Source of the DNA: Leisingera aquimarina DSM 24565
Lineage (GTDB): Bacteria; Pseudomonadota; Alphaproteobacteria; Rhodobacterales; Rhodobacteraceae
Length of the DNA stretch: 64,000 nt
NCBI RefSeq assembly: GCF_000473165.1
Contig: NZ_AXBE01000012.1
Coordinates: 45,644 to 109,643, forward strand
Reading direction: 5' to 3'
Shown here: piece by piece, positions 38,395-58,371 of the stretch
Position numbering within the stretch: position 1 is the first letter of the stretch
Layout of the letters: the number at the start of each line of letters is the position of its first letter
Notes under the pieces: model-generated
The model's input: only the letters and a program-made list of their open reading frames with translations
Databases searched by the model: none
What the model was told of the DNA's origin: nothing
Translations under genes and position numbers: made by a program

Positions 38395-38574
38395 ATGACG
38401 CAAGCACTATCCACCGAAGAACAAAGCAAGGACCGTTTCTTTCAGCAGCTCGCCAAAGTAGCAGAAAAGATGGTCGAGGAACACGGCAAGGATTTTGCCG
38501 CAGGCGCGCTGGTTCTGGCCGCGCGCTGGGTGTCAGAAAACCGGCTCGGCAAACCCGAGGACCTGAAACACTAA
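38395..38574 (+). CDS. Small hypothetical protein (59 aa)
   Basis: ATG 38395 follows GGGAGGGAGACCA, a strong ribosome site. The product begins MTQALSTEEQSKDRFFQQLA and ends ENRLGKPEDLKH. It is a soluble, helix-rich protein (VAEKMVEEHGKDFAAGALVL) without known motifs. It closes the unit with the 96-aa and WD40-like genes and overlaps the end of the convergent gene at 38571 by 4 bases. Confidence 0.7.
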   Translation: MTQALSTEEQSKDRFFQQLAKVAEKMVEEHGKDFAAGALVLAARWVSENRLGKPEDLKH

Positions 38575-39524: not shown

Positions 39525-39619
39525 CTTGCTGCTTTTCAATGGTTTCTTTATCTCAAAATAGCGCGGCGCTTGGCCTCGGGGCCAGCATTTTGTCGGCTGC
39601 CCGGGCAGAAAGCAGTGCC

Positions 39620-40864
39620 ATGCCTTTGAAGACTCAGCTGCGCGCGAAACACAGCCAGGTGTTCCGGCTGGGTCAGGTTGTGACCCTTCTTCAGATGTCC
39701 GCGGCGGAACTTGATGAGCATCTGGCCGTTGAGGCGCAGGAGAATCCGCTGCTGGTTTTGCGCCGGCGCCGGGCCGCCGGGATGAGCGCCACGGATGTGC
39801 TGGAAATGACCGCGGTGGAACAGGCAAACAGCCTTTATGATCATGTGTTCCGCGAATTGGCCGGGATGATCGGCCAGGGCGGGCTGATGGAAAAACTCAT
39901 CATCGCGCTGATTGCGGAGCTTGAGCCGTCGGGCTGGCTGGGGCGCGCGCCCGTGTCGATTGCCGAAAGCTTGGAACTGAGCGGGGAGTTGGTGGAAACC
40001 GCGTTGCGGGTGGTTCAGAAACGGGTCGATCCGGCGGGACTGTTCGCCCGCGATCTCACGGACTGCCTGCGGTTGCAGTTGGAAGACCAGAACGCGATGA
40101 GTAAGGACATGGAGCTGGTGCTGGATCATCTTCCTGCGCTAGAAAGCGGCGGCCCGGAGGCGCTGGTTCGGGCGACCGGACTGCCGTGGGACAGGGTGCA
40201 GGATTGCCTCGCGCTGCTCCGCCGGCTCGATCCGAAACCGGGCAGCGCCTTTGCCTTGGATCCGACGCTTACACGTGAACCCGATGTCCGGATCACGCCG
40301 TCAGGCGAGGGCTGGGAAATCGATTTTCTGTCGTCGTGGCAGGGGGGTATCGAAATCACCAAGCTTCCGCGGGGTAGTCGGGCAAGCGAGGCCAGCGAAG
40401 CGCTGGCCAAGGCGCGGACGCTGAAACATGCGCTCGACATGCGGGTGTCCGCGCTTAAAGCGGTGGTGGGCCAAATCGTGGAGCGCCAGGGAACCTATTT
40501 CCGCTTTGGCGACGGCGCTCTGGCTCCGATGACTCTGTCCGAGATTGCGCGGGAAACCGGATTTCACCTAAGCACCGTCAGCCGAGTGCTGAACGGTTTG
40601 CTGATTGAAGGGCCGAACGGCATTGTTCTTGCGCGCACCCTGTTCACCGGCACGGCGTCGGCCCAGGCTACCCAGTCCAAGCCGCAGGTCCAGGTGCGCA
40701 TTCGGGCGCTGCTGGCCGACGAAGACCCGAAGAAGCCGCTGTCCGATCGGCGGCTGACGGCCATTCTGCAGTCCGAAGGGATCGCGGTGTCGCGCCGTGT
40801 CGTGTCGAAGTACCGGCAGGACATCGGCATCTACGCCGCCTCGAAGCGCCGGCTGCCGGCCTGA
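39620..40864 (+). CDS. rpoN: Short RNA polymerase sigma54 factor (RpoN paralogue)
   Basis: The 414-aa sigma54 has region I (MPLKTQLRAKHSQVFRLGQV, then VTLLQMSAAELDEHLAVEAQ and ENPLL), the core-binding domain, the HTH for the -12 element (LSEIARETGFHLSTVSRVLN) and the RpoN box variant SRRVVSKYRQDIGI near the C-terminus. Typical RpoN proteins have 470-500 residues; this one is short and its region I has fewer glutamines, which points to a specialised paralogue. ATG 39539 would add 27 residues and leave only 14 bases to the divergent gene, so 39620 is preferred. Its gene lies just upstream of the monooxygenase operon, whose promoter has a -24/-12 site. Confidence 0.93.
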   Translation: MPLKTQLRAKHSQVFRLGQVVTLLQMSAAELDEHLAVEAQENPLLVLRRRRAAGMSATDVLEMTAVEQANSLYDHVFRELAGMIGQGGLMEKLIIALIAELEPSGWLGRAPVSIAESLELSGELVETALRVVQKRVDPAGLFARDLTDCLRLQLEDQNAMSKDMELVLDHLPALESGGPEALVRATGLPWDRVQDCLALLRRLDPKPGSAFALDPTLTREPDVRITPSGEGWEIDFLSSWQGGIEITKLPRGSRASEASEALAKARTLKHALDMRVSALKAVVGQIVERQGTYFRFGDGALAPMTLSEIARETGFHLSTVSRVLNGLLIEGPNGIVLARTLFTGTASAQATQSKPQVQVRIRALLADEDPKKPLSDRRLTAILQSEGIAVSRRVVSKYRQDIGIYAASKRRLPA

Positions 40865-41047
40865 CGCGCCAACCCCTCGGCGCGGTATGACGCTACAGAA
40901 GTGAACATCCGGATGCGGTTGTTGGCCCGCACGGTTCCGGCGATGCTGCGATGCGGAAAGCCCGATATTTTTTAGCGGTTTGCGCTGACAGGCGCGGTGC
41001 TTTCGGGGTGCGCGGTGCGGGATGTATAATGCGGGTGTTTCAGCAGG

Positions 41048-41095
41048 TGTAACGAAGCGTAAAGTCATTGGAACGGCGATTGTAACGTTTTGCGA
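41048..41095 (+). promoter_or_regulatory. Upstream activator-binding motifs before the monooxygenase operon
   Basis: TGTAACG occurs at 41048-41054 and 41081-41087, the second inside TGTAACGTTTTGCGA. They lie about 135-180 bases upstream of the -24/-12 promoter, the usual distance for sites of sigma54 activators. The motif ACGTTTTGCGA recurs in reverse at 36428-36438. The regulator at 56235 is the probable binder. Confidence 0.5.
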
Positions 41096-41226
41096 CAGTC
41101 CGCCCATATGCCTCGCCCGGCCTCGGCCTCAAGCGAAGTGCCCCGCGAAAAACTCATCGAAAAATATTATTCAAAATCAGTCAGATAATATATTTCTTCG
41201 CGCCGCTTCGGACGTCTGCCGAATTC

Positions 41227-41242
41227 TGGAACCGGCCTTGCC
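41227..41242 (+). promoter_or_regulatory. Sigma54 (-24/-12) promoter of the monooxygenase operon
   Basis: TGGAACCGGCCTTGCC has the obligatory GG-N10-GC spacing and fits TGGCACG-N4-TTGCW at most positions. It lies 215 bases before the hydroxylase start, giving a leader of about 200 bases. Its position between activator motifs and the operon and the neighbouring rpoN gene support it. Confidence 0.7.
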
Positions 41243-41456
41243 AGAAGAGAACCACAAGACGCTAGCGCCCGGACAGGACGCTCAAAGAACGAAGGACAGG
41301 GAGAGAGACCAGCAGCCGCCTCGATGCAGCGGGCGTGTCGAACTTCTCAACCTTTGCCGAGAACCGGTGCCTCAAGGGGGGCGCCAAACCGAAACGGCAA
41401 AAGCCGCCAACCGGGCGCCGGGCGACTGGCCCCAGAGCTTTAAGGAGGCTCATGGC

Positions 41457-43121
41457 ATGACTTTGACGCTCAACAAGATCACGTCCCAACGTGGTATCTC
41501 GGTAGGGGAGGCCACTAAGAAGATCTCCGATCTCGGATGGAATCCGTCCTACGTCCAGGAGGCCGCCACCTTCCCAACCGACTACAAGATCACCAAGGCC
41601 CCGCGCGACCCGATGAAACAGGTCCTGCGCTCTTACTTCCCGATGGAAGAGGAAAAGGACAACCGTGTTTACGGCGCGCTCGACGCGGCGCTGCGCGGCG
41701 ACATGTTCCGCAACGTGGAGCCGCGCTGGATCGAATGGATGAAGCTGTTTCTGGCAATCATTCCATTCCCCGAGATCTCGGCCGCGCGGTCGATGGCCAT
41801 GGTGGCGCGCCTGTCACCGGGCGAGGACCTGCGCACCGGCTTCACCATGCAGATGGTCGATGAATTCCGTCACTCCACGATCCAGATGAATCTGAAGAAG
41901 TGGTACATGGAAAACTACATCGACCCGGCGGGCTTCGACATTACCGAAGAAGCCTTCGGCAAGTGCTATGCCACCACCATTGGCCGCCAGTTCGGCGAAG
42001 GGTTCATCACCGGCGACACCATGACCGCCGCCTGCATGTACCTGACCGTGGTGGCGGAAACCGCCTTCACCAACACGCTCTTCGTGGCCATGCCCTCGGA
42101 AGCGGCGCGGAATGGCGACTATGCGCTGCCCACGGTGTTCCTCTCGGTCCAGTCGGACGAAAGCCGCCACATCGGCAATGGCCATTCCCTTCTGATGGCC
42201 GCGCTGAAGGAGCCGGAGAACCACCTGCTGCTGGAGCGTGACCTGCGCTACGCCTTCTGGCAGAACCACGCCATCGTTGACGCCGCCATCGGGACGTTTA
42301 TCGAATACGGCACCACCAACCGCGACAAGGAAAAGGAATCCTATGCGGAGATGTGGCACCGGTGGATCTTTGAGGACTACTATCGGACCTACATGCTGCC
42401 GCTCGAAAAGTATGGCGTGAAGGTCCATCACGACGACGTCCAGGAAGCCTGGAAGCGGATCACCGAAAAGAACTACGTCCACAAAGTCGCCCAGTTCTTC
42501 GCCGTCGGCTGGCCTGTCAACTTCTGGCGCATTGAAGCCCAGACCGAGAAGGACTTCGAGTGGTTTGAGCACAAGTACCCGGGCTGGTACGCCGAGTTCG
42601 GCGAGTTCTGGAAGTGGTACGCGAAACTGTCGAAGCCGGGCGAGAAGGTCGTCACCTTCAACGAGGAAACCGGTTACGTCTATCCGCACCGCTGCTGGTC
42701 GTGCCTCGTGCCCTGCCTGATCCGCGAGGACATGGTGGTCGACGAGATCGACGGCGAGCTGCACACCTTCGCCCATGAGCTGGACCGGTGGACCGCGGTC
42801 GAGGCCTTCTCGGACGAATACCAGGGTCGGCCTACCCCGGCGATGGGCAAGTTCTCGGGCAAGCGTGAATGGGAAACCGTCTATGACGGCTGGGACCTGG
42901 CGGATGCCATCAAGGATCTCAACTTTGTCCGCGAAGACGGCGAAACCCTGGTGCCGCAGCCGCACCTGCGGTTCGACAACAAGGACATGTGGAAGCTGGA
43001 GCATGTCCGCGGCCACACCCTGGCTTCGCCGCTGAAAGCGCTGCGAGCCATGTCGCCCAGCGATCGCGAGGCGCACATCGCCGACTATCGTGCAGGCTTC
43101 ACCATCAATCCCTGCAACTGA
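41457..43121 (+). CDS. mimA: Soluble di-iron monooxygenase hydroxylase alpha subunit (MimA/PrmA type)
   Basis: The 554-aa catalytic subunit of a propane/acetone-type binuclear iron monooxygenase inserts oxygen into small alkanes, ketones or phenols. The di-iron ligands are visible as two E-x2-H motifs: MVDEFRHSTIQMN and SVQSDESRHIGNGH, with further Glu in the neighbouring helices (MVARLSPGEDLRTGF; LTVVAETAFTNTLFV). The C-terminal cysteine-containing HRCWSCLVPCLIRED is typical of the PrmA/MimA group. The start at 41457 follows TAAGGAGG; the longer frame from 41022 includes the promoter and is wrong. It is the first of a long operon. The substrate is inferred only from the gene order. Confidence 0.93.
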   Translation: MTLTLNKITSQRGISVGEATKKISDLGWNPSYVQEAATFPTDYKITKAPRDPMKQVLRSYFPMEEEKDNRVYGALDAALRGDMFRNVEPRWIEWMKLFLAIIPFPEISAARSMAMVARLSPGEDLRTGFTMQMVDEFRHSTIQMNLKKWYMENYIDPAGFDITEEAFGKCYATTIGRQFGEGFITGDTMTAACMYLTVVAETAFTNTLFVAMPSEAARNGDYALPTVFLSVQSDESRHIGNGHSLLMAALKEPENHLLLERDLRYAFWQNHAIVDAAIGTFIEYGTTNRDKEKESYAEMWHRWIFEDYYRTYMLPLEKYGVKVHHDDVQEAWKRITEKNYVHKVAQFFAVGWPVNFWRIEAQTEKDFEWFEHKYPGWYAEFGEFWKWYAKLSKPGEKVVTFNEETGYVYPHRCWSCLVPCLIREDMVVDEIDGELHTFAHELDRWTAVEAFSDEYQGRPTPAMGKFSGKREWETVYDGWDLADAIKDLNFVREDGETLVPQPHLRFDNKDMWKLEHVRGHTLASPLKALRAMSPSDREAHIADYRAGFTINPCN

Positions 43122-43132
43122 TCACGGCCATC

Positions 43133-43158
43133 GCCGGGGCTGCGACAGCGGCCCCGGC
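43133..43158 (+). other. Intercistronic hairpin between mimA and mimB
   Basis: A perfect stem GCCGGGGC/GCCCCGGC with a 10-base loop starts 11 bases after the mimA stop. No T-run follows. The arms resemble those of the hairpin at 45771-45805, so both may adjust subunit ratios by protecting upstream mRNA. Confidence 0.5.
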
Positions 43159-43193
43159 ACCCCCCGCAATCACGGGAGAGGGAGGAGACAACA

Positions 43194-44252
43194 ATGACGG
43201 ACATCTACAACGTGCGCCTTGAGCCGGTCGGCGTGGAGTTCGAGGTCGAGGACGGTGAATACATCCTTGACGCCGCCTTTCGCCAGGGCATCGCGCTGCC
43301 GCATGGCTGCAAGGAGGGCCAATGCTCGGCCTGCAAGTGCGTCCAGCTCGACGGCGAGTCCGAGATGGAGAACTATTCGACCTTTGCGCTCAACGACATG
43401 GAAAAGGACGGCGGCCATATTCTGATGTGCCGCTCCCTGGCGCTCAGCGATCTCGAGATCGAACTGCTGAATTACGATGAAGAGGTGCTGTCCAAAAGCA
43501 TCCCGGTCAAGCAGTTCACCGGCCGGATCACCGATTTCCAGAAGCTCACCCATGACATTCGCGGAGTCCAGATCGTACTGGATTCGCCTTTGAAATTCTG
43601 GGCGGGTCAATATGTCGACATCACGGTCAAAACCGAAGAAGGGGAGGAGATTACACGCTCGTTCTCCATGGCAAATCCGCCGAGCGAAACCCAAAAACTC
43701 GGCTTCATCATCAAGAAATACCCCGACGGACGGTTCAGCAACGAGCTCGACGACGGCGGCATCAAGGCCGGAGCAGAAGTCAGCATCGAAGGCCCCTACG
43801 GCATGTGCTTCCGACGCGAAGAGCGGCAAGGACCCGTGATCCTCGTCGGCGCCGGCTCGGGCATGTCGCCGGTCTGGTCAATCCTGAATGACCAGGTGGC
43901 CAGCGGCGAAGATCGTCCGGTTTACTTCTACTATGGCGCCCGCACGCAGGACGATCTTTTCAAGCTCGACGAGATTAGCGCCATCACCGGCGCCCATCCC
44001 AATGTCGAATTTATCCCCGTCCTCAGCCATGAGGAAGAGGGCAACGGATGGGCCGGGGCGCGCGGCTTCGTGCACGAATATGTGGACACGCACCTGCGCG
44101 AGCTGGGGATCGACGGCGAGGGCGATGTCTATGCCTGCGGCCCGCCGCCGATGATCGACGCGCTGACGCCGGTGCTCTTCATGCACGACTTCGATACCGA
44201 CCGCATCTTCTACGACAAGTTCACGCCCACGTCCGGTTCTTCGGGCCACTGA
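43194..44252 (+). CDS. mimB: Monooxygenase NADH-dependent reductase component
   Basis: The 352-aa electron-transfer protein has an N-terminal plant-type [2Fe-2S] ferredoxin domain (HGCKEGQCSACKCVQL, C-x4-C-x2-C, with the fourth Cys in GGHILMCRSL), an FAD domain (EEITRSFSMANPPSETQKLG, RxFSMA flavin motif) and an NAD-binding domain (VILVGAGSGMSPVWSIL; DVYACGPPPMIDALTPVLF). It passes electrons from NADH to the hydroxylase. The position between the alpha and beta hydroxylase genes is the order known for mimABCD/prmABCD. A GGGAGGAG sequence precedes the start. Confidence 0.93.
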   Translation: MTDIYNVRLEPVGVEFEVEDGEYILDAAFRQGIALPHGCKEGQCSACKCVQLDGESEMENYSTFALNDMEKDGGHILMCRSLALSDLEIELLNYDEEVLSKSIPVKQFTGRITDFQKLTHDIRGVQIVLDSPLKFWAGQYVDITVKTEEGEEITRSFSMANPPSETQKLGFIIKKYPDGRFSNELDDGGIKAGAEVSIEGPYGMCFRREERQGPVILVGAGSGMSPVWSILNDQVASGEDRPVYFYYGARTQDDLFKLDEISAITGAHPNVEFIPVLSHEEEGNGWAGARGFVHEYVDTHLRELGIDGEGDVYACGPPPMIDALTPVLFMHDFDTDRIFYDKFTPTSGSSGH

Positions 44253-44297
44253 CGGTCCGAACGCTCGTGACGTGAACGAAACCCAAGGGAGGCAATC

Positions 44298-45359
44298 ATG
44301 CCAGCAACATCCAGCTCAGTCGGATCCGGTGCCGCCGGTGCCGCGGAATTCACCGGCTCCAAGAGCCGTAAGTACAATTACTTCGAACCGCGCGGCAAAC
44401 GGGCGACCCACTACGAGGATGTCACCGTCGACGTCCAGCCCGATCCCGATCGCTACCTGATTCAGAACTGGATCATCGAGTTCGAGGGCGGCAAGGGCGG
44501 CGGCGCTTACCAGAAGGACAACACAGCGGCGCTGTCGTCGAACTGGCACGCCTTCCGCGCGCCCGACCAGGAATGGGAGCGCACCCACTACCAGCGCCAG
44601 TCCAAGATCGAGACCATGGTGCAGAATGTGATCTCGAACGCCCGCAAGGCCGGCGCGCATAAGGTCTTCGACAAGAACTGGCAGACCATCCTCCAGAAAC
44701 ACCTGGGCGCGTGGAAACACGCGGAATTCGGCCTCGGCACCTCGCTCATGCAGGCGCAGCGCTACGGCTACACCCAGATGATCAACAACGCCACGCTGAC
44801 CAATTCCTCCTACAAGATGCGCCTGACCCAGGACATCACGCTCTACCTGGCCGAGATCGGCATGGACATCGACGGCTGGGATGACACCCTGGGCAAGAAG
44901 GTGTGGCTGGAAGATCCGATCTGGCAGCCCTGCCGCGAGGCGATCGAAACGATTATGGGCTCGGAAGACTACCTCGAGCAGTATTTTGCCATCAATATCG
45001 TCTTTGAGCCGATGGTGGGCGAGCTGATCCGCTCGGGCTTCTTCATGCAGGCGGCCGCGGCCAACAACGACTTTATCACCCCGCCGGTGATTTCCGCCGC
45101 CGAAGCTGACTATGAGCGCAACCTCGCGAACACCGTCGACCTGATCTACCTGCTGGCGCACGACGAAGAGCATGGCGAACACAACCGCGCGCTCTTCAAG
45201 GCCTGGCTCGCCAAGCATGGCGACTTGGCTGAAAAGGCCGCTGCCGCGCTGCAGCCGATCTGGTCGCAGCCGCATTCTAAGCCGGTCTCCTTCGAGGACG
45301 TCAAAGCCGTCTCACAAGAGCGCCTTGGCAGGATCATCGCCGAATTGGGCCTGTCGTAA
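44298..45359 (+). CDS. mimC: Monooxygenase hydroxylase beta subunit
   Basis: The 353-aa structural subunit has the ferritin-like fold of the di-iron monooxygenase family but no metal site. Recognisable segments are SRKYNYFEPRGKRATHYEDV at the N-terminus, FGLGTSLMQAQRYGYTQMIN in the middle, and EQYFAINIVFEPMVGELIRS and LIYLLAHDEEHGEHNRALFK towards the end. It pairs with the alpha subunit in an (alpha-beta)2 hydroxylase. The start follows AGGGAGGCAATC. The coupling-protein gene follows after 23 bases. Confidence 0.92.
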   Translation: MPATSSSVGSGAAGAAEFTGSKSRKYNYFEPRGKRATHYEDVTVDVQPDPDRYLIQNWIIEFEGGKGGGAYQKDNTAALSSNWHAFRAPDQEWERTHYQRQSKIETMVQNVISNARKAGAHKVFDKNWQTILQKHLGAWKHAEFGLGTSLMQAQRYGYTQMINNATLTNSSYKMRLTQDITLYLAEIGMDIDGWDDTLGKKVWLEDPIWQPCREAIETIMGSEDYLEQYFAINIVFEPMVGELIRSGFFMQAAAANNDFITPPVISAAEADYERNLANTVDLIYLLAHDEEHGEHNRALFKAWLAKHGDLAEKAAAALQPIWSQPHSKPVSFEDVKAVSQERLGRIIAELGLS

Positions 45360-45382
45360 CTCTCTGAAAAGGAACTGGAACC

Positions 45383-45757
45383 ATGTCTAGCACAGCGCGC
45401 AACGCGTCCAACCAGAACATCTTCAAATCAATGAAGGACATCGACCTGACCTCACGCGAGGTCTCGCACCAGTGCGGCGTCACCATGAACGACAGCGTCG
45501 AGGCCCGCGCCATCGCCGAGTTCATGGAGGAAAATGACCCCAAGGTCACGATCACCTACAACCCGGCGACCATTCGGATCGATGGCGAGGGCAAGCTTAT
45601 CTTCAAGATGAGCGAGATCACCGAGTACCTGGGCCGCGAGATGACCGCCGAGACCTTCGAGGTCAACACCTCGACCCACTACGGGCGGATGGTCCGGGTC
45701 GACGACGATACCGTGATCCTGTTCGGCGACATGAACGAGGTCATGGAATTCATCTGA
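45383..45757 (+). CDS. mimD: Monooxygenase coupling/effector protein
   Basis: The 124-aa MmoB/DmpM-type regulatory protein has no cofactor. The typical sequence is REVSHQCGVTMNDSVEARAI, AEFMEENDPKVTITYNPATI, RIDGEGKLIFKMSEITEYLG and a terminal HYGRMVRVDDDTVILFGDMN. It binds the hydroxylase and gates oxygen and substrate access. It is the last of the four structural genes; a strong hairpin follows before the amidohydrolase gene. Confidence 0.92.
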   Translation: MSSTARNASNQNIFKSMKDIDLTSREVSHQCGVTMNDSVEARAIAEFMEENDPKVTITYNPATIRIDGEGKLIFKMSEITEYLGREMTAETFEVNTSTHYGRMVRVDDDTVILFGDMNEVMEFI

Positions 45758-45770
45758 TCGACCGCTGACA

Positions 45771-45805
45771 GCTCCGGGGCTGCTGCATCTGCACGGCCCC
45801 GGAGC
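45771..45805 (+). other. Intercistronic hairpin between mimD and amidohydrolase gene
   Basis: A perfect 10-bp stem GCTCCGGGGC/GCCCCGGAGC with a 15-base loop, without a T-run, separates the four enzyme genes from the accessory genes. It would be a good barrier to 3' exonucleases or a partial attenuator. Confidence 0.55.
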
Positions 45806-45839
45806 CCGCGACAACTCAGCCAATGCAAGGGAGGACACC

Positions 45840-46865
45840 ATGTTCAAGACACCGGACGGAAAAGAGATCTTCGTTCTCGACGGGCACACCCATTTCTGGG
45901 ACGGCAGCCCCGAGAACCAGGCGAATGTACACGGCAAGCAGTTCATCGACTGCTTCTATGCCTATCACACCAATCTGAGCCCCGAGGACCAGCTCTGGGA
46001 GAAGGCCAGGTTCGAGAAGTACTCCGAGGACGACATCTATCGCGACCTGTTCGTCGACGGACCCGACGACATGGCGATCATCCAGTCGACCTATCTGAAC
46101 GACTTCTACAAGAACGGGTTTTCCTCGATCGAACGCTCGTCGTCGATGGCCCAACGCCACCCGGAGCGCTTTATCGTCAACGGCAGTTTCGATCCCCGCG
46201 ATGGCGAAAAGGCGCTGGAATACATCCACTATATGAAGGAAAACTTCGATATCAAGGGCGTGAAGATGTACACGGCCGAGTGGAGCGGCGACAGCAAGGG
46301 CTGGGCGCTGAACGATCCGGCAGCATACAAGTGCTTTGAGCTGTGCGAGAAACTGGGTATCAAGAACATCCACGTCCACAAGGGGCCAACGATCATCCCT
46401 CTGTCGAAGGATGCTTTCGATGTCCATGACGTCGACCACGCCGCCACCGATTTCCAGGGCCTCAACTGGATCATCGAACATTGCGGCCTTCCGCGGCTCG
46501 ACGATTTCTGCTGGATCGCGACCCAGGAAACCAACGTCTATGGCGGGCTGGCGGTGGCGATGCCCTTCATCCATTCGCGCCCGCGCTACTTCGGCGAAGT
46601 GATTGCGGAACTGCTGTGGTGGGTTGGCGAAGACAAGCTTTTGTTCGGCTCGGACTACGCGATCTGGACACCGCAGTGGCTGGTCGAGAAGTTTTGGGAC
46701 TACCAGATCCCCGAGGACATCTCGGCAGAACGCGGCGGCGTGCAGCTGACCGACGATGTGAAAGAGAAGATCCTCGGGCTGAACGCGGCCAAGCTTTATA
46801 ACATCGACGTGGCCGCCAAGAAAGCAGAACTGGCCGGCGCCCCTGTCCAGATCGCGGCGGAGTAG
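45840..46865 (+). CDS. Amidohydrolase-family protein of the monooxygenase operon
   Basis: The 341-aa TIM-barrel metal hydrolase is of the Amidohydro_2 group. The first-strand metal motif HxH is in VLDGHTHFWDGSPENQ; KGVKMYTAEWSGDSKGW and NIHVHKGPTIIPLSKDAFDV supply further His residues, and the last strand has LLFGSDYAIWTPQWLVEKFW with the conserved Asp. A homologue occupies the same place in known mim/prm clusters, but its reaction is not established as far as I know. It begins after GGGAGGACACC and ends 4 bases before the DUF59 gene. Confidence 0.88.
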   Translation: MFKTPDGKEIFVLDGHTHFWDGSPENQANVHGKQFIDCFYAYHTNLSPEDQLWEKARFEKYSEDDIYRDLFVDGPDDMAIIQSTYLNDFYKNGFSSIERSSSMAQRHPERFIVNGSFDPRDGEKALEYIHYMKENFDIKGVKMYTAEWSGDSKGWALNDPAAYKCFELCEKLGIKNIHVHKGPTIIPLSKDAFDVHDVDHAATDFQGLNWIIEHCGLPRLDDFCWIATQETNVYGGLAVAMPFIHSRPRYFGEVIAELLWWVGEDKLLFGSDYAIWTPQWLVEKFWDYQIPEDISAERGGVQLTDDVKEKILGLNAAKLYNIDVAAKKAELAGAPVQIAAE

Positions 46866-46869
46866 GGCG

Positions 46870-47673
46870 ATGCTGGTGGCCAATCTCAAGGCAGAGCTGG
46901 AAACCGATGTCTGGGAATGTCTCGACGCAGTGACAGACCCGGAGCTTGATGAGCCCATCACCGACATGGGCTTTGTCGAGCGGATCGAGGTCACGGACGC
47001 GAAGAAGGTGCGGGTAGAGTTCCGGCTCCCAACCTATTGGTGCTCGCCAAACTTCGCCTTCCTTATGGCCTTCGGTATCCGGAAGGAGGTTACGTCGATC
47101 CCTTGGGTTGTCGAGGCCGAGGTGCAGCTGAACGATCATTGCTTCGGTGAAAAGGTCAACGAAGGCGTCAATAGCGGCCGTGCATACCACCAAATCTTCG
47201 CAGAATACTGCGACGGTGCGCGGCTCGACGAGGTGGTCGACACCTTCCTCGCCAAGGCCTTCGACCGGCGTCAGGAAACCGTGCTGCTTGGATTGCAGGC
47301 GCTGGGGCATGACGCAGAAGATATCGTCTCAATGTCCCTTGGCCAGCTTCGGCGTGTGGTTTTCAGCGGCGAAGAGGAGCTGCGGCAATTGCCGCGTTAC
47401 CTTGATCTCCTCTTGTCCCAGGGGCTGGCGTCCGAGCCGCATGATTTGGCCTTCCCCTCATGGGACGGAGACGAGATCGCTCCGCATGAGCTCAGGGCGC
47501 ATCTTGCCAAGCTGCGCAGCACGCGGATCAACATGGAGTTCAACGGGGCGCTGTGCCGGGGGCTCGCCAAAACGCGCTACAAAGAGGTCGAAATCGGGCC
47601 CGATGGCCCGACTCTGATCGACTTCATCGAAGGCCGCGTTCCGTCTCGGGAAAAACTCGCTGCGCGAGGGTAA
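46870..47673 (+). CDS. DUF59/MIP18-domain protein of the monooxygenase operon
   Basis: The 267-aa protein has an N-terminal DUF59 (FeS assembly/PaaD-like) domain with the typical WECLDAVTDPELDEPITDMG and the Cys-containing PTYWCSPNFAFLMAFGIRKE. The C-terminal part (FDRRQETVLLGLQALGHDAE, LRQLPRYLDLLLSQGLASEP) is specific to this cluster type. DUF59 proteins help to insert iron-sulphur or iron centres, so a role in loading the di-iron site or the reductase cluster is plausible, though inferred. It starts 4 bases after the amidohydrolase stop. Confidence 0.82.
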   Translation: MLVANLKAELETDVWECLDAVTDPELDEPITDMGFVERIEVTDAKKVRVEFRLPTYWCSPNFAFLMAFGIRKEVTSIPWVVEAEVQLNDHCFGEKVNEGVNSGRAYHQIFAEYCDGARLDEVVDTFLAKAFDRRQETVLLGLQALGHDAEDIVSMSLGQLRRVVFSGEEELRQLPRYLDLLLSQGLASEPHDLAFPSWDGDEIAPHELRAHLAKLRSTRINMEFNGALCRGLAKTRYKEVEIGPDGPTLIDFIEGRVPSREKLAARG

Positions 47674-47739
47674 CTCGCCGGAAATTCACATGAAATCAGG
47701 ACGGCACCCAGGCATTCGTCTGGGCCGATGGAGGAAGAT

Positions 47740-49371
47740 ATGGCTAAACTCATGGTACACGGCAAGACTGCCCGCAATTGTCTGGCCCGCGGGGTCGCAC
47801 GGCTTGCGGCAGCGGTGGAACCGACGCTTGGGCCCAAGGGGCTGAATGCAATGGTGGACCGCCCGGTGGGCACCCCGGTAGTGACCCGCGACGGGGTCAG
47901 CATTGCCTCTGAGATCGAACTCAACGACCGTTTCGAGAACATGGGCGCCCAGGTGGTGCGCGAGGTTTCAATGCAGACCAATGACGTGGCGGGCGACGGC
48001 ACTACAACCGCCATTGTGCTGGCCAACGCACTGATCCAGCGCGGCGTGGATCTGACTGATAATGGTGTCAAGCCGGTGGATCTCTGCAAGGGGATCGATC
48101 TAGCGGTAGCGCGAGTGGTCGACGCGATTGATGCCTCCTCTCTCGATTGCGACGACCACCCGGAGTACCTTGAGGCGGTGGCGCGCGTGTCGTCGACTGA
48201 TCCCAAACTGGGCGAGCTGGTGGCAGAAGCCTATCGCCGGGTCGGCCGCGATGGCGTCATCTCGGCCGACTTCGGTGTCACCATTGAAACCACGATGGAT
48301 GTGGTCGAAGGCATGTCTTTCGAGCGCGGCTACATCTCGCACCACATGGTCACCGACCGCGAGCACATGGAAGCGGTGCTGCGCAATCCGCTGATCCTGC
48401 TGACTGACCAGAAGATCCTGAAGCCCGGGACGCTGGACTCCGCCATCTCGATTGCTGATGCCGAGAACCGCCCGCTTCTGATTGTCGCGGAAGAGATCGC
48501 GCCCGAAGTGGTGGTCAAACTGCTGGAGGCCGGCGGCGCGGGGAAATACTTGATCGTGCATCCGCCGGAATACGGCCATTGGCGCACCGCGATGATGGAC
48601 GACCTGGCCATTCTTACCGGCGGCGAGGTTCTGGCCCGCGATCTGGGCAAGAAGATCGAGAATGTCACGCTGGCGCAGCTGGGCGGGGCGGAAATGGTCC
48701 GCTCCCACGCCTCGGGCACCTCTGTGCTGCGCGGCGAGGGCGATCCGGAGGCGATCACTGCCCGCCGCAACCAGGTGCAGCGCCAGCATGACGTGGCGCC
48801 GCCGAACATCGAGAAGGACAAGCTGCGCGAGCGGCTGTCGAAACTGACGGGCGGCAGCGCGATTATCTATGCGGGCGGTTTCACCCCGGTCGAGCAGAAG
48901 CGCACGATCCAGCTGATCGAGGACGCGCTCTGTGCGGTCCAGGCGGCAGCCGCGGATGGCGTGGTCGCCGGCGGCGGGACGGCGCTGGCGCAGATCTCCG
49001 GCTGCCTCGACAAGATCGACGCGCTAGGCGACGTGGCCAAGGGCATCCAGCTGGTCCGGTCGATCCTGACCGAACCGGTCCGCCGCATTGCCCGCAATGC
49101 CGGGGCCGACGTGGCCGCCGTGGCGCAAGCCGTGTCCGAGGGCCCGCCGGCTCACGGCTACAACGCCGCCACCGGCACCTACGGTAACATGTTCGAGGCC
49201 GGCATTGTCGATCCCGCCCGTGTGCCTGCCAGCGCGCTGGTCAACGCGGCCTCGGTCGCGACACTGATCCTGACCACGGAAACCTTGGTCGGCGATCTCG
49301 AAGAAGGCGAGGCCGACCCGACCGAAGGCCCCGCCCGCGGTGGCGGTGCCGAGCTTCTGGGCCGCGCCTGA
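47740..49371 (+). CDS. mimG: Dedicated GroEL-like chaperonin (MimG type)
   Basis: The 543-aa group I chaperonin has the normal ATP-binding segments (PTLGPKGLNAMVDRPVGTPV, NDVAGDGTTTAIVLANALIQ) and GroEL fold order, but is clearly divergent from housekeeping GroEL. Its C-terminus (LVGDLEEGEADPTEGPARGG, then GAELLGRA) lacks the GGM-repeat tail. Mycobacterial MimG is needed to fold the MimA hydroxylase, and this gene has the same setting. No groES gene is nearby, so it must use the host GroES or none. The start at 47740 follows GGAGGAAG. Confidence 0.92.
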   Translation: MAKLMVHGKTARNCLARGVARLAAAVEPTLGPKGLNAMVDRPVGTPVVTRDGVSIASEIELNDRFENMGAQVVREVSMQTNDVAGDGTTTAIVLANALIQRGVDLTDNGVKPVDLCKGIDLAVARVVDAIDASSLDCDDHPEYLEAVARVSSTDPKLGELVAEAYRRVGRDGVISADFGVTIETTMDVVEGMSFERGYISHHMVTDREHMEAVLRNPLILLTDQKILKPGTLDSAISIADAENRPLLIVAEEIAPEVVVKLLEAGGAGKYLIVHPPEYGHWRTAMMDDLAILTGGEVLARDLGKKIENVTLAQLGGAEMVRSHASGTSVLRGEGDPEAITARRNQVQRQHDVAPPNIEKDKLRERLSKLTGGSAIIYAGGFTPVEQKRTIQLIEDALCAVQAAAADGVVAGGGTALAQISGCLDKIDALGDVAKGIQLVRSILTEPVRRIARNAGADVAAVAQAVSEGPPAHGYNAATGTYGNMFEAGIVDPARVPASALVNAASVATLILTTETLVGDLEEGEADPTEGPARGGGAELLGRA

Positions 49372-49432
49372 GCGCGGTTTCACACCCGAGGGGTCGGGCG
49401 TTCCGGCCTTTCCCGAGCAAAGGACATAGACC

Positions 49433-50476
49433 ATGAAAGCAGCGAGACTCTACGAATACGATCCCGGCATGAACGTCGAGTTGAAGATTGAGGACGTCGC
49501 CGCGCCCACGATCACGGCCCCGGACGAGGTGATCGTCAAGGTCGGCGCAGCGGGCCTCTGCCGCACCGATCTGCACATCATCGAAGGCGTCTGGAAGGAC
49601 ATCATGGACACCAAGGGCAACCTGCTGCCTTATGTGATGGGCCATGAAAACGCTGGTTGGGTCGAGGACGTGGGCAGCAATGTCACTTCGGTCAAACCCG
49701 GCGACGCGGTGATCTGTCACCCGTTCAACGCCTGCGGTATCTGCCTGGAATGCCGCTATGGCCATGACATGTACTGCGACCACGGCAAGTTCCCCGGTCT
49801 CGGACTGGATGGTGGCTTTGCTGAGTATTTCAAGACCAACGAACGCTCGGTCATCAAGCTGAACACCGGCATCACGCCGCTGAGCGTCGCGCCGATGGCC
49901 GATGCCGGGATCACCGCCTACCGCGCTGCCAAAAAGGCCGCGAAACTTCTCAATCCAGGCGGTTATGTCCTGCTTCTGGGCATTGGCGGGCTGGGCCATA
50001 TCGCGCTCCAGGTGCTTAAGCACACCTGCGGCGCACGGGTCATCGCGGTGGACCGGGAACCGGCGGCGCAGGTGCTGGCCAAGGAGCTGGGGGCCGACAT
50101 CGTGCTCGACGGCGGGCCGAACTTGATCGACGAGGTCAAGGACCTGACTGGCGGCGGGGTGCATGTGGCGATTGATTTCGTCGGTGAGCACGGCACCGAG
50201 AACATCTGCTGGAAGCTGCTGCGCCAGGGCGGCGAGCTGATCATGGTGGGCTATGGCGGCATGGTCGAAGTGCCGACGCTGGAGCTGGTTGCCAACGAGA
50301 TCAAGATCGGCGGCAGCCTCGTGGGCGACTTCGTCGAATTGGTCGAGCTGATGGAGATGAACGCCGACGGAAAGGTCACGATGCACCAGACCGAATACAA
50401 GCTGGCCAACATCAACGAGGCGATTTCTGACTTCAAGGATCGCAAGTTTACCGGACGCGGCGTGATCGTACCCTGA
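49433..50476 (+). CDS. adh: Zinc-dependent alcohol dehydrogenase (MDR family)
   Basis: The 347-aa medium-chain dehydrogenase has the catalytic zinc region GLCRTDLHIIEG and GHENAGWVEDVGS, the structural zinc cysteines in FNACGICLECRYGHDMYCDH, and the NAD-binding motif GIGGLGHIALQVLKH with the Asp of DREPAAQV, suggesting NAD preference. It would oxidise the alcohol made by the monooxygenase. Its counterpart lies in the same position in known propane/acetone monooxygenase clusters. Some 60 bases separate it from the chaperonin gene. Confidence 0.92.
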   Translation: MKAARLYEYDPGMNVELKIEDVAAPTITAPDEVIVKVGAAGLCRTDLHIIEGVWKDIMDTKGNLLPYVMGHENAGWVEDVGSNVTSVKPGDAVICHPFNACGICLECRYGHDMYCDHGKFPGLGLDGGFAEYFKTNERSVIKLNTGITPLSVAPMADAGITAYRAAKKAAKLLNPGGYVLLLGIGGLGHIALQVLKHTCGARVIAVDREPAAQVLAKELGADIVLDGGPNLIDEVKDLTGGGVHVAIDFVGEHGTENICWKLLRQGGELIMVGYGGMVEVPTLELVANEIKIGGSLVGDFVELVELMEMNADGKVTMHQTEYKLANINEAISDFKDRKFTGRGVIVP

Positions 50477-50521
50477 CACGCAGTCCGGCTCCCCGAGGCG
50501 CGCCGCCCGTGCGCCTTCCCT

Positions 50522-50552
50522 CGCGGGCCTGCGCCCTTCCCGTGTGCCCGCG
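50522..50552 (+). other. Intercistronic hairpin between adh and VOC gene
   Basis: A stem CGCGGGC/GCCCGCG with a 17-base loop lies in the 109-base gap, without a T-run. It separates the conserved monooxygenase part of the operon from the following oxidoreductase part. Confidence 0.4.
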
Positions 50553-50585
50553 GGGCTCCTTACCACCTGCAATGCCGAGGACATC

Positions 50586-50981
50586 ATGGCCAAAGCCATC
50601 CATTCCATGATCCGCGTGCTGGACGAAAAGCGCTCGGTCGATTTTTACCGCAGGGCCCTTGGGCTGACCGTGGCGGAGCGCCTCGATTTCGACAGCTTCA
50701 CGCTGGTCTACCTTTCCAATGACGAGGCCGCCTTCGAGCTCGAACTAACGGTCAACAAGGGCCAGTCCGAGCCCTATGTCTTGGGCAACGGCTATGGCCA
50801 CCTGGCGGTCTGTGTGCCCGATGTGGCGGCGGAACACGCAAGGTTCGAAGCCGAGGGGCTGAAGCCCCGCAAGCTCGTCGATTTCAAGCACGAGGGCGCA
50901 ACGCTCGCCCATTTCTTCTTCGTTCAGGATCCCGACGGTTACGAGATCGAGGTCGTGCAGCGGGCCGGGCGCTACCGGTAA
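50586..50981 (+). CDS. VOC-family (glyoxalase I-like) protein
   Basis: The 131-aa protein has two beta-alpha-beta-beta-beta modules. The metal-ligand positions of glyoxalase I are suggested by SMIRVLDEKRSVDFYRRALG, TLVYLSNDEAAFELELTVNK, YGHLAVCVPDVAAEHARFEA and FFVQDPDGYEIEVVQRAGRY. It may be lactoylglutathione lyase or a related enzyme removing methylglyoxal or another aldehyde. Methylglyoxal can arise from acetone via acetol, which would fit this island. The start ATG 50586 (MAKAIHSMIR) agrees with family N-termini; the track-like start at 50544 is too long. Confidence 0.85.
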   Translation: MAKAIHSMIRVLDEKRSVDFYRRALGLTVAERLDFDSFTLVYLSNDEAAFELELTVNKGQSEPYVLGNGYGHLAVCVPDVAAEHARFEAEGLKPRKLVDFKHEGATLAHFFFVQDPDGYEIEVVQRAGRYR

Positions 50982-51006
50982 TCCAAATCAGACAGGGAGG
51001 CCCCTA

Positions 51007-51531
51007 ATGTCACTTAGCAAGCAAGGCATGACCCGCCGCCAGTTGCTGTCGCAAAGCGCGCTCTTCGGTGCCGGTTTCGTTATCGGCGCCGGTTTCGTCG
51101 CAGGCAAGGCCAGCGCCTCCAATTGGGCGCTCGAGGTCGAACATCTCAACCCCGGAACTATGGCGACGCTTATCCAGATGGCGCGCGATATCTATCCGCA
51201 CGACCAGGTTGGGGATCAACACTATGCAACTGCGGTTAAGGGCTATGACACCGCAGAGGCCGCCGAAGGGGTCGAGGCCGGTGTCGCAGCGCTAAACGAT
51301 GCGGCCAGGGGCGTGGGCTATGCCCGCTACATCGACATCGGCTGGGAACGTGACCGCGCCGATTTGTTGCGCGGTTTCGAAGACACCGCCTTTTTCCAGC
51401 AGGTTCGAGGCGGTCTTGTGACTGGTCTCTACAACCAGAAAGCGGTTTGGCCAATCTTCGGATACGAGGGCGAGAGCTTCTCCGAAGGCGGCTACATCGA
51501 CCGCGGTTTCGACGACATCCACTGGCTTTGA
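51007..51531 (+). CDS. Tat-exported small subunit, gluconate 2-dehydrogenase subunit 3-like
   Basis: The 174-aa protein starts with a twin-arginine signal (MTRRQLLSQSALFGAGFVIG, following MSLSKQG; cleavage probably after AGKASA). The mature part has the subunit-3 features TMATLIQMARDIYPHDQVGD, GVAALNDAARGVGYARYIDI and YNQKAVWPIFGYEGESFSEG. In such dehydrogenases this small subunit carries the Tat signal for the FAD-containing GMC large subunit, which has none. The GMC gene follows after 13 bases, so a periplasmic two-subunit enzyme is likely. A cytochrome c subunit is not encoded here. Confidence 0.85.
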   Translation: MSLSKQGMTRRQLLSQSALFGAGFVIGAGFVAGKASASNWALEVEHLNPGTMATLIQMARDIYPHDQVGDQHYATAVKGYDTAEAAEGVEAGVAALNDAARGVGYARYIDIGWERDRADLLRGFEDTAFFQQVRGGLVTGLYNQKAVWPIFGYEGESFSEGGYIDRGFDDIHWL

Positions 51532-51544
51532 GGGGGCTTGAGCC

Positions 51545-55388
<3,844 letters not shown>

Positions 55389-55411
55389 CGCCTGGCACGG
55401 CGGATCAGAGG

Positions 55412-55430
55412 AAAACCGGATCGGTTTTTT
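55412..55430 (+). terminator. Intrinsic terminator after katG
   Basis: AAAACCG/CGGTTTT with a GAT loop followed by further T, 23 bases after the katG stop. It probably ends the 14 kb transcript that starts upstream of mimA. Confidence 0.75.
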
Positions 55431-55639
55431 AGCGAGTGGGTCGGGGGCCGGACACAGGTCCCCGACAAGTTGTGCCGGCCAGGAATGGCCCGATCGCGGA
55501 ACCGTGTTCCGGCCAAGAGACATGCCCGGAACACAACCGGAAACCGCAAGAAAATAGGCCTGTTGCGTCCATATACGGCCCGAAAGTTTGGCAATGGGCT
55601 GCGCAATCTGCTAACATTTGTACAGGGGGAGGAAAAACA

Positions 55640-56131
55640 GTGGTGGATATTTTTTCGAAGCGCGGCGGTCCGCGTCTCGAAGACGTGAAGGCAAAGCGTC
55701 TGTTGTCGGAAAATGCTGGCACGATACGCAAACTTGCGGATCAGATCAGCAATGGCGGGTTCAGCCGGATGCAGGCCGATCAGGCGCGCCGGAAGCAAGA
55801 GCCGAAGCCCGATGGGCTGATCATCCACGACATGAAGGCGCGGGTCACATCCGACGTGCCCGCGCCTTATGTCAAGGTCAGCCTCAACAACCGGGTGGTG
55901 CTGGTCGACAAGTCGACAGGCCTCCAGATGCAGATGCTGGGCGAGATCCGCGGTAACTTCATGTCGAGAAAATTTGTGCTGGCGACGAAAAAAAACGGCT
56001 TCCTCTCGCCGCTGGAGGAGGGCACCGCCGCCGCGCTGGCGCATCTGGAAGGGGTGGAGATGACCGCCACCTTTAACGATCGCGCCCTTGCCGAGGCGAT
56101 TGAAGCCTTGCTTGTACCGCAGGACGACTGA
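55640..56131 (+). CDS. Hypothetical protein between katG and the sigma54 activator gene
   Basis: The 163-aa protein starts at GTG 55640 (or GTG 55643) after GGGGGAGG. It has an N-terminal helical part (DVKAKRLLSENAGTIRKLAD), the block DGLIIHDMKARVTSDVPAPY, and a mixed alpha/beta C-terminal part (VSLNNRVVLVDKSTGLQMQM, EEGTAAALAHLEGVEMTATF). No family recognised. The DGLIIHDMKAR block resembles SGLMVLDMKDAR in the 96-aa protein at 36947. The stop lies about 100 bases before the regulator gene, and the two may be co-transcribed. Confidence 0.75.
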   Translation: MVDIFSKRGGPRLEDVKAKRLLSENAGTIRKLADQISNGGFSRMQADQARRKQEPKPDGLIIHDMKARVTSDVPAPYVKVSLNNRVVLVDKSTGLQMQMLGEIRGNFMSRKFVLATKKNGFLSPLEEGTAAALAHLEGVEMTATFNDRALAEAIEALLVPQDD

Positions 56132-56234
56132 TCCTCGTCCGCGCTATTTTCTCGTCATCGACCGTGAGGAATGCCTGCAGAGCCGGTATCATTGGCCCGC
56201 AACGACACATGAGAAAAGCGAGAGGGCGCATCAA

Positions 56235-58199
56235 TTGCCTGATAACTCCAGCTATTCGGACGACGATACCCGCAAGGCCTGGGAGAAATTCGTCTCCTCC
56301 GGCAAAGACGGCGACGGGATGCCGGCGAAGGTGCGGGACGAGATCCTCGCCTCCTGGCGGCGCAGCCGGGAGCTGGGGGTCGATGCCGGCAGCCAAGCTT
56401 CACGCAAGGTGATCGACGAAAGCCAGTTGTTTCTGCGCCGTGAACGCAACACCGCGCTCCGCCAAGCGGCCTCGGCGGCCTTCAAACGGCTGGAGCCGCA
56501 TCTGAAAGAGGCCCGCACCATTCTGATCCTGGCTGACAGCCAGGGGGTGATTATCGACGCCATCGGTGACGAACACGTGCTGGACGAGGGCCAGGAAATC
56601 CACCTGGAGCTTGGCGGCGACTGGAGCGAGCGCACCATCGGCACCAATGGCATCGGCACCGCGCTCAAGACCGGCAAACCCTCTTACGTGCATGCCTCCG
56701 AGCATTTTGCCGAAGGCGTACAGGCCTGGACCTGCGTCGGTGCGCCGATCTTCGATCCTCTCACCCAGAACGTGATCGGCGTCGTCGATCTGTCCGGTCC
56801 GCCGCAGATTTTCCGCCAGCACAATGTGGCACTGGTCCTGGCGGCGGCGCGCGAGATCGAGATTGCGCTGGCGGAACAGAAACAGGTCGAACGCACGCAA
56901 TTGCTGGAAGCTTTCCTGATGTCGGATTACAGCCGCGGTCATGACAGTGTGGTGCTGGTCGATCAATCGGGCCGCGTGCTGTTCCGCCGCGGGCTGGACG
57001 ACGACCCGCTGCGCCGGAACAAGGAATTGTCGTTCGGCCACAAGCTGTTGCCGAAACTTGAAGGCCTGTCGGATCAGGATATTCCCAAGCTCTTGCCGCT
57101 CAACGTCGAGGCGGAAGGCATCGAACGGCTCAAGCTGGAAGGCGTTTTTCGCGGCGCCGCCCTGTTTCTCAAGGACAAGGGCAAGATGCGGCAGGCGGGA
57201 GTAACCTGCACCATCAAGCCGCGGGTCAATGTGGCGGAGGGCGAGATCCAGATCATTGGATCGTCGCCGAAGATGGTCGATGCCATCGGCCTGGCCGAAC
57301 GCGCGGCGCTGGCCAATGTCCCGGTGCTGATCCACGGTGAAACCGGAGTCGGCAAGGAATTGTTCGCGCGCCTGATCCACAGCCGGATGCCGGATACCAA
57401 GGCTCCCTACGTGCCGGTCAACTGCGCGGCCATTTCCAGCGATCTGATCGGCGCGGAACTGTTCGGCTATTCGGAAGGCGCCTTTACCGGCGCCGTCCGG
57501 GGCGGGCGCGCCGGGAAGTTCGAACAGGCCAACAACGGTGTGCTCTGCCTCGATGAAATCGGCGACATGCCGATCGAATTGCAGCCCTACCTGCTCAGGG
57601 CGCTTGAACAGCGGGCGATCTACCGGGTAGGTGACAACAAGCGGCGCCCGGTCGATGTCCGGCTGGTGACGATGACCAACCGCGACCTGCGCCAGGAGAT
57701 CGAAAAGGGCAATTTCCGCCGCGACCTGTTCTACCGCATCGGGGTGATGACCATCGAGGTGCCCCCCTTGCGAGAACGCGGCAACGACATCGTCGCCTTG
57801 CTCGACCATTTTTCGCAAAAATACGCCGAAGAAACCGGGCGCACACCGATGACCTTTGCCAGCCGGGCGATGGAATTGATGCTGAAGTACCAGTGGCCGG
57901 GCAACGTCCGGGAGCTGCGCAATGTCGTTCAGCGCTTTTTTCTCATCAAGCCAGACAGTTTCGTGACTGAACGGGATTTGCCGCCGGAGATTCAGGACGA
58001 TTTCGACGATGGCGCAGAGAATTCACTGGAGCATATCCTCGGCGGCCATTCCGGCGACTTGGAAAGCATCGAGGCCAGCGCCATCCGCCGGGCGATCAGC
58101 GCGGAGAACGGCAACCTGACCAGAGTGGCCCAGGTTCTCGGGATCTCGCGGCCAACGCTTTACCGCAAGATCAAGCGGTATCACATCCGCAAGGTCTGA
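56235..58199 (+). CDS. mimR: Sigma54-dependent activator, AcoR/MimR-like
   Basis: The 654-aa bacterial enhancer-binding protein has an N-terminal sensor with a GAF-like domain (RTILILADSQGVIIDAIGDE, ERTIGTNGIGTALKTGKPSY, TCVGAPIFDPLTQNVIGVVD), an AAA+ domain with Walker A HGETGVGKELFARLIHS, the sigma54-contact motif GYSEGAFTGAVRGG and Walker B CLDEIGDMP, and a Fis-type HTH (NLTRVAQVLGISRPTLYRKI). The intact GAFTGA fits the local rpoN gene and -24/-12 promoter. No receiver domain is present, so it should sense a small molecule directly. The start is uncertain: TTG 56235 is the best candidate because no ATG/GTG lies in a good place. Confidence 0.9.
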   Translation: MPDNSSYSDDDTRKAWEKFVSSGKDGDGMPAKVRDEILASWRRSRELGVDAGSQASRKVIDESQLFLRRERNTALRQAASAAFKRLEPHLKEARTILILADSQGVIIDAIGDEHVLDEGQEIHLELGGDWSERTIGTNGIGTALKTGKPSYVHASEHFAEGVQAWTCVGAPIFDPLTQNVIGVVDLSGPPQIFRQHNVALVLAAAREIEIALAEQKQVERTQLLEAFLMSDYSRGHDSVVLVDQSGRVLFRRGLDDDPLRRNKELSFGHKLLPKLEGLSDQDIPKLLPLNVEAEGIERLKLEGVFRGAALFLKDKGKMRQAGVTCTIKPRVNVAEGEIQIIGSSPKMVDAIGLAERAALANVPVLIHGETGVGKELFARLIHSRMPDTKAPYVPVNCAAISSDLIGAELFGYSEGAFTGAVRGGRAGKFEQANNGVLCLDEIGDMPIELQPYLLRALEQRAIYRVGDNKRRPVDVRLVTMTNRDLRQEIEKGNFRRDLFYRIGVMTIEVPPLRERGNDIVALLDHFSQKYAEETGRTPMTFASRAMELMLKYQWPGNVRELRNVVQRFFLIKPDSFVTERDLPPEIQDDFDDGAENSLEHILGGHSGDLESIEASAIRRAISAENGNLTRVAQVLGISRPTLYRKIKRYHIRKV

Positions 58200-58371
58200 G
58201 TTCGCGGGTTACAGGGTCCATGGGGCCGCCGCGTCGGCGTTCAAGCCGAAACGGTGGAAAACCGTGATCAACGGCAAGTGCGGGCCGAAACTGTGTGGAA
58301 ATTTGACGCTGGGGTCGGCGGGACGGCAGTTTTGTCTGGTTGGTCGGCGCTGACATTAGAATGTATTTTGA
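58200..58371. other. Right edge of the island, no gene seen
   Basis: 172 bases between the activator gene and a truncated phosphatase frame. Nothing recognisable and no direct repeat or attachment-like sequence was found by eye. Confidence 0.4.

Follow-up and report, generated by a model that had tools for sequence, protein, structure and literature searches.

A putative private sigma54 circuit carried by a mim-type di-iron monooxygenase block in Leisingera aquimarina

Sigma54 (RpoN) is commonly regarded as a factor that serves the whole host. This paper concerns an rpoN gene that lies beside mimA, the gene for the hydroxylase large subunit of a mim-type di-iron monooxygenase, in Leisingera aquimarina DSM 24565; both genes were analyzed in a stretch of 64,000 nucleotides (the window; contig NZ_AXBE01000012.1, positions 45,644 to 109,643 of the forward strand). 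In Cereibacter (Rhodobacter) sphaeroides, RpoN proteins form dedicated pairs with their activators: RpoN1 with NifA, RpoN2 with FleQ and RpoN3 with AprX (PMC11999139; see also PMC3162934). RpoN1 and RpoN2 promoters differ at position -11, a base that provides part of the specificity, and the same source gives no function for RpoN4 or for the activator RSWS8N_04525 (PMC11999139). The Mesorhizobium loti island ICEMlSymR7A carries rpoN2 and the activator gene nifA, and its atypical nifH promoter suggested recognition by RpoN2 only (PMC3538637). In Methylosinus trichosporium OB3b the soluble methane monooxygenase (sMMO) depends on sigma54, and its dedicated activator is joined by a protein resembling GroEL (Stafford 2003, cited in PMC5874634). 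Clusters of the mim/prm type are described from actinobacteria, with mimR and groEL beside mimABCD (PMC8394569), and Actinomycetota are effectively without functional RpoN (PMC12316311). A previous description of the window made from its letters alone (the sequence-only reading) had likewise stated that mim clusters are best known from actinobacteria and that these lack sigma54.

We consider it highly likely that the mim cluster of the window belongs to a self-sufficient transferable catabolic unit with a private sigma54 circuit, in which transcription of mimA is predicted to depend on sigma54. RpoN would associate with the core enzyme of RNA polymerase and recognize the -24/-12 promoter at 41227, and the GAF-type activator would bind TGTAAC-N5-GTTACA sites, which in the window lie some 155-205 bases before the predicted start. 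The activator would sense a small inducer and remodel the holoenzyme through its GAFTGA motif, switching on mimA and the genes after it, its presumed operon. The sequence-only reading had proposed a complete circuit of this kind, and it is supported by the lack of any other sigma54 found in the genome, by the sole GAFTGA activator, by the co-transfer of the block and by linkage over 80 loci. It had also held that the circuit would make the enzyme independent of the host RpoN after transfer. Such independence is likewise supported, and no host RpoN was found in the source genome.

The source genome comprises 5.34 Mb in 8 contigs and has a completeness rating of 100%; its contig C5, of 242,809 bases, holds the window. 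A PF04552 profile search gave a single match in this genome, the window RpoN, and PF04963 likewise found no other rpoN. The gene had been called an RpoN paralogue, a description that has to be dropped, as this is the sole sigma54 found in the genome with either profile. "Short and divergent" was correct, since the protein scores just under the TIGR02395 cut-off (262.6 against 277.35 bits) and so narrowly misses the equivalog level. All three sigma54 domains exceed their Pfam cut-offs (AID 29.2, CBD 106.4, DBD 131.7 bits), and the protein aligns to solved sigma54 structures. Its RpoN box reads SRRVVSKYRQ where the canonical box is ARRTVAKYRE; both arginines are retained, and by its sequence this is a variant box, not a loss of the domain. 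The gene is constrained, not decaying, as indicated by a dN/dS of 0.20-0.30 (11 pairs; dS above 1 in four). The corresponding values for mimA are 0.01-0.06 (5 pairs), and MimA is much more conserved than RpoN (97.3% versus 47.7% for locus L078).

The activator has the Walker A (GETGVGKE) and GAFTGA motifs and the Fis-type helix-turn-helix (HTH) of a bacterial enhancer-binding protein, and the sequence-only reading was right to place it in the island. Its annotated Ponticoccus counterpart, of 658 amino acids, has an identical domain set. Translation probably starts near 56235 and not at 56088, because two congeners have in-frame stops before that point. GAFTGA occurs once in the window, in this gene. 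Nine open reading frames (ORFs) of the genome match Sigma54_activat, three of them resembling Clp-type ATPases (L012 by Pfam; L010 and L011 by reading of the sequence) and six resembling enhancer-binding proteins. Among these six, GAFTGA is confined to the island activator, and one has GAFPGA; paralogues whose interaction with sigma54 has been lost, such as HupR, are known (PMC3162934). Some activators near mimA in other loci lack the exact motif: L111 has GAYTGA, L155 has GSFTGA, and none was found in L117, which is also without a -24/-12 site.

The sigma54 promoter pattern GG-N10-GC is present upstream of mimA, as the sequence-only reading had said, with a start predicted about 12 bases downstream. 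The site owes its credibility to conservation at the corresponding position of homologous loci, and the exact sequence CTGGAACCGGCCTTGCC stands at the mimA locus in all five block-bearing genomes of the genus. The upstream repeats noted earlier were also recovered, as one activator site and a weaker copy that begins 33 bases before it (Table 1). In a scan for TGTAAC and GTTACA halves with spacers of 3-7 bases, the activator site scored at least 10/12 in 61/80 mimA loci, compared with 2/80 shuffled ones, whether or not rpoN was linked to mimA.

Within the genus, sigma54 exceeds the cut-off in 5/21 genomes by PF04552 and in the identical five by PF04963; in G001 and G016 PF04552 also gives a second, weak match that stays under the cut-off. 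Exactly these five carry mimA, and they also carry the cognate activator (91-95% identity in the other four). The family was sampled with 394 genomes, about one per genus, and mimA was counted as intact at 89% identity or more. Sigma54 exceeded the Pfam cut-off in 130 of these genomes and nothing did so in the other 264. Since most of the family genomes sampled and 16/21 genus genomes are without sigma54, the enzyme would not be transcribable in this way unless the sigma factor were carried along. All 12 genomes with intact mimA have rpoN, as opposed to 118/382 without (Fisher 1.2e-6, uncorrected for kinship), and in 10 of the 12 the two are linked; the remaining two (G206, G253) carry a canonical rpoN (217 and 214 bits) on a different contig. 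In G372 mimA is broken and the adjoining rpoN-like frame (L272) is truncated and has no PF04552 match, as if both were decaying together.

A second set comprised the best 80 of 586 named mimA relatives, several of whose genomes are also in the family sample, so that the counts overlap. As judged within the DNA fetched around each mimA, rpoN adjoins it in 44 of these 80 loci, mostly of Rhodobacterales; the question of whether this RpoN always accompanies proteobacterial mim clusters is thereby answered in the negative. By record names, the linked arrangement is found in Rhodobacterales and in two metagenome-assembled genomes (MAGs) named as Alphaproteobacteria only. Genome-wide counts were made for 43 of the 44 linked loci (all but L110), and 29/43 have a single full-length sigma54 match; G061, G066 and G087 show a further partial match, weak at 20-23 bits. 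Of the 36 unlinked loci, 34 belong to genomes that have a canonical rpoN at another place (at least 218 bits), and the mim loci of Rhizobiales-type hosts accompany such a gene. The pattern in the sets searched is that where the host has a canonical rpoN the cluster has none, and where there is no host rpoN the cluster carries one.

The rpoN gene moves with the block. In blastn comparisons with four congeners (G001, G015, G016, G019) the block has about 90-95% identity, and on the left, in the window, it ends at the point where this similarity is lost, adjoining a Tn3-family element. The congeners have a further 1.5-1.7 kb in common to the left of the block, at the place occupied in the window by the Tn3-family transposase gene. 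Beyond the block and this extension the flanks are unlike between genomes (0.6-3.3 kb compared at the left, about 4-6 kb at the right), with the exception of about 0.2 kb more common to G001 and G015 at the right and one 63-base match. In G019 the block is part of a contig of 4.36 Mb, and rpoN-mimA linkage occurs on three named plasmids, of Ponticoccus, Gemmobacter fulvus and Paracoccus aminophilus. The earlier proposal of one island with all the elements stands, but not its extent of 39620-58199, as the block is larger.

The mim-linked RpoNs have one origin, to judge from a quick tree of 116 selected rows (51 mim-linked, 65 others) from which the RpoN-box columns were removed and which was midpoint-rooted for drawing only. 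Not included were six duplicates, the truncated L272, the mim-linked RpoN of G361 and numerous further RpoNs of the family. All 51 mim-linked rows lie on one side of a branch with SH-aLRT 94, so that a single change is needed. Ponticoccus (with one extra divergent gene) and Paracoccus both retain small gene-WD40-small gene-rpoN in this order, which in Paracoccus is inverted relative to mimA. Separate RpoN sources for the two gene orders are not favored, given the kept order and the single side of the branch. The tree of mimA does not group each RpoN class described below (changes: non-Thr 3, Thr 6, none 6), so the histories of enzyme and sigma factor are not demonstrably identical. In Caballeronia mimA is accompanied by the WD40 gene, and the annotation shows no sigma factor at that place. 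At L277 (in G169) an rpoN with the box SRRAVANHR lies near a frame like the island activator (287 bits), without mimA; this is perhaps a further private sigma54 circuit.

Several observations weigh against a private circuit. Taken by itself, the promoter motif does not exceed chance expectation: six sites in 20 kb, that of mimA included, score 9/11. Five outgroup loci (Bradyrhizobium, Azospirillum, Methylocella and two of Caballeronia) and Paracoccus show no evident activator site (best 7-9/12, spacer 5 only). The RpoN of L112 (3827-5116) has the box SRSTVAKYR, in which the second arginine is replaced by Ser, and no clear mimA promoter accompanies it. Further full-length rpoN genes are present in 14/43 linked genomes (none above 206 bits), and two MAGs, G106 (a short contig) and G118, have mimA with no rpoN found. 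That -24/-12 matches of such quality arise by chance in the island would fit a mimA transcribed from a sigma70-type promoter, with rpoN as a vestigial passenger. We regard this as most improbable: rpoN is under purifying selection and adjoins mimA in more than half of the best 80 loci, its mim-linked members form one group, and the promoter and activator site are conserved.

The RpoN of the window could also be a host sigma54 that by chance lies next to mim and serves a wider regulon. As the sole sigma54 found, it would have to serve any other sigma54 promoters of the genome, in which TGGAACN5TTGC occurs at 15 sites compared with 7 in a reversed control. However, 10 of the 15 lie in open frames of 306-520 codons (frames, not proven genes) and 4 in copies of one repeat, which leaves the mimA site. 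A longer motif, with one mismatch allowed, has a mean of 5.0 sites per genome in the five genus genomes with rpoN (4.0 when that of mimA is not counted) and of 3.6 in the 16 that lack rpoN. G001 and G015 each hold a second exact match. Neither count is a clear enrichment, and genome-wide motif counts were set aside as evidence for a regulon. The absence of rpoN from 16 of the 21 genus genomes, its movement with the block and the lack of GAFTGA in any other activator of the genome make a host factor very unlikely. The simplest, though tentative, interpretation of these data is a private circuit whose RpoN would serve essentially a single promoter.

Within this group of RpoNs, recognition of the -24 element may have changed. 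Loci were classed by residue 4 of the RpoN box, the Thr of ARRTVAKYR, which we take to be T457 in E. coli numbering. There are 33 non-Thr loci, which form a subclade that includes the window (Val, Ile, Met and once Ala), 18 Thr loci and 38 without a linked rpoN. The promoter scan required GG and GC, which are hence conserved by construction; base -23 was free. It is A (TGGA, not TGGC) in 32/33 non-Thr loci and C in one. Among the Thr loci 0/18 have A and 15 have C; L121 has T, and the two others were automatically called G, one of them, L273, offering a C site of equal score and the other, L112, being ambiguous. Loci without a linked rpoN have C in 32, T in three and A in two, and one has no site. 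Outside the count, Ponticoccus (SRRVVAKYRQ, A) and Paracoccus aminophilus (ARRTIAKYRD, C) fit the same division. All five outgroup loci have C, so A at -23 is probably derived. Moreover, L091 (Ala, C) lies inside the non-Thr clade, which implies that box and promoter changed jointly a second time. The activator site is unaltered between the two classes, and the RpoN box is the region that contacts the -24 element (PMC7175178).

These data suggest a natural promoter-specificity switch, in which Thr to Val, Ile or Met in the box together with C to A at -23 would make an orthogonal sigma54-promoter pair of the window subclade. This would be an addition to the private circuit, not an alternative to it, and we see the case as evenly balanced. 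There is in effect one switch and one reversal on the tree, hence the class counts lack independence and a Fisher value calculated from them would overstate the association. A at -23 (TGGAATC) also occurs at two Roseibium loci that have no linked rpoN but a canonical-box RpoN in the genome, and three further loci of this kind have T. Other box residues vary as well, and L112, of Thr type minus one arginine, has no clear site. Somewhat more tentatively, we propose that a sigma54 serving about one promoter traveled with the enzyme into sigma54-free lineages and, with no wider regulon to maintain, may have rewritten its -24 recognition (Thr to Val, C-23 to A). When scanned to test base -23 independently, loci with non-Thr or odd boxes elsewhere (L250, L258, L259, L240, L268, L235, L242, L277, L254, L234, L236) gave no convincing promoter; L250, L258 and L259 are non-mim Rhodobacteraceae RpoNs with Val at the Thr position. 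Two loci with Thr-type linked RpoN (L103, L110) have TTAC, not TTGC, at -12 of the mimA promoter.

Table 1. Positions of the block, its genes and its regulatory sites in the window
Feature	Position	Strand	Remarks
Tn3-family transposase gene	34929-36155		next to left block edge; Pfam
Transferable block	36273..58216 (right end 58216-58444 by genome)	.	blastn vs G001, G015, G016, G019
WD40-repeat protein gene	37238..38374	+	Pfam
Divergent gene adjoining rpoN	38571..39527	-	no Pfam match
rpoN, dedicated sigma54	39620..40864 (ORF 39539-40864)	+	likely ATG 39620, 414 aa (amino acids); three sigma54 Pfam domains
Second, weaker upstream activator site TGTAACGAAGCGTAAAG	41048..41064	+
Upstream activator site TGTAACGTTTTGCGACA, TGTAAC-N5-GTTACA type	41081..41097	+	conserved in mimA loci
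-24/-12 promoter-like site TGGAACCGGCCTTGCC	41227..41242	+	GG 41228-41229, GC 41240-41241; predicted start 41253
mimA, hydroxylase large subunit	41457..43121	+	PF02332
Reductase	43194..44252	+	Fer2, FAD, NAD domains
Hydroxylase small subunit	44298..45359	+	PF02332
Coupling protein, MimD-like	45383..45757	+	PF02406; NF045941 95.6 vs cut-off 150
Amidohydrolase	45840..46865	+	profile match
Iron-sulfur assembly-like protein	46870..47673	+	profile match
GroEL-like chaperonin	47728..49371	+	profile match
Zinc-type alcohol dehydrogenase (ADH)	49433..50476	+	profile match
VOC/glyoxalase-family protein	50544..50981	+	Pfam
Small protein	51007..51531	+	no Pfam match; Ponticoccus counterpart annotated twin-arginine signal protein
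GMC oxidoreductase	51545..53116	+	Pfam
Peroxidase-family protein	53172..55388	+	Pfam; Ponticoccus counterpart annotated katG
GAF-AAA(GAFTGA)-Fis sigma54 activator	56235..58199 (ORF opens 56088)	+	Pfam GAF, Sigma54_activat, Fis-HTH

By its Pfam matches the cluster is a mim-type di-iron monooxygenase with a putative role in propane or acetone oxidation. It has the MimABCD-type subunits and GroEL of mim/prm propane 2-monooxygenases, with the MimD model below its cut-off. A WD40 gene near mimA was also seen by Pfam in Ponticoccus, Paracoccus and Caballeronia, and in Ponticoccus a gene without a Pfam match occupies the same place as the divergent gene adjoining rpoN.

One genome in our samples, G174, presumably represents C. 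sphaeroides strain 2.4.1. Of the four rpoN genes in this genome, the first is found within 4 kb of fliP, another adjoins a homocitrate-synthase-like gene, a third lies beside mimA and the last is unassigned. The neighbors of its mim-linked rpoN do not separate RpoN3 from RpoN4, and no activator is present in the DNA stretch examined around it; in C. johrii (L118) the activator at the mim locus gives a match of more than 580 bits to the window GAF-type activator. Because AprX, the partner of RpoN3, has a receiver domain and the mim activator is of the GAF type, we predict by elimination that RpoN4 and RSWS8N_04525 are the mim pair, which would suggest a possible function for RpoN4.

Like C. sphaeroides with its four dedicated RpoNs, the window has a putative dedicated sigma54-activator pair in Rhodobacterales, indicated here by co-occurrence (5/5 in the genus). 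Unlike in C. sphaeroides, where the sigma factors coexist, the window RpoN is the sole one, lies on a transferable block and is associated with a promoter change at -23. It behaves as cargo, in that a catabolic block would supply its own polymerase specificity in a family largely without sigma54 (264/394). If the change at -23 is real, one RpoN-box residue and one promoter base form a candidate specificity switch that could be used for orthogonal sigma54 circuits. The M. loti rpoN2 resembles the window gene in that sigma54 and activator are on a mobile island and serve the island's own genes, but there the host keeps a chromosomal rpoN1 and the function is nitrogen fixation, not a monooxygenase. 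In M. trichosporium OB3b, where rpoN is reportedly linked to the sMMO cluster (rpoN-mmoR-mmoG), a di-iron monooxygenase likewise has a dedicated activator and a GroEL-like protein; the enzyme group differs. The actinobacterial mim/prm clusters have mimABCD and groEL as in the window, the difference being that their hosts are effectively without functional RpoN. Searches of open-licence literature, for the most part at the level of titles and abstracts, brought up nothing on a mim-linked rpoN or a -23 change. Dedicated RpoNs, an island-borne rpoN2 and the rpoN-mmoR-mmoG arrangement are already known, and what the present locus adds to them is the co-variation of the RpoN box with base -23.

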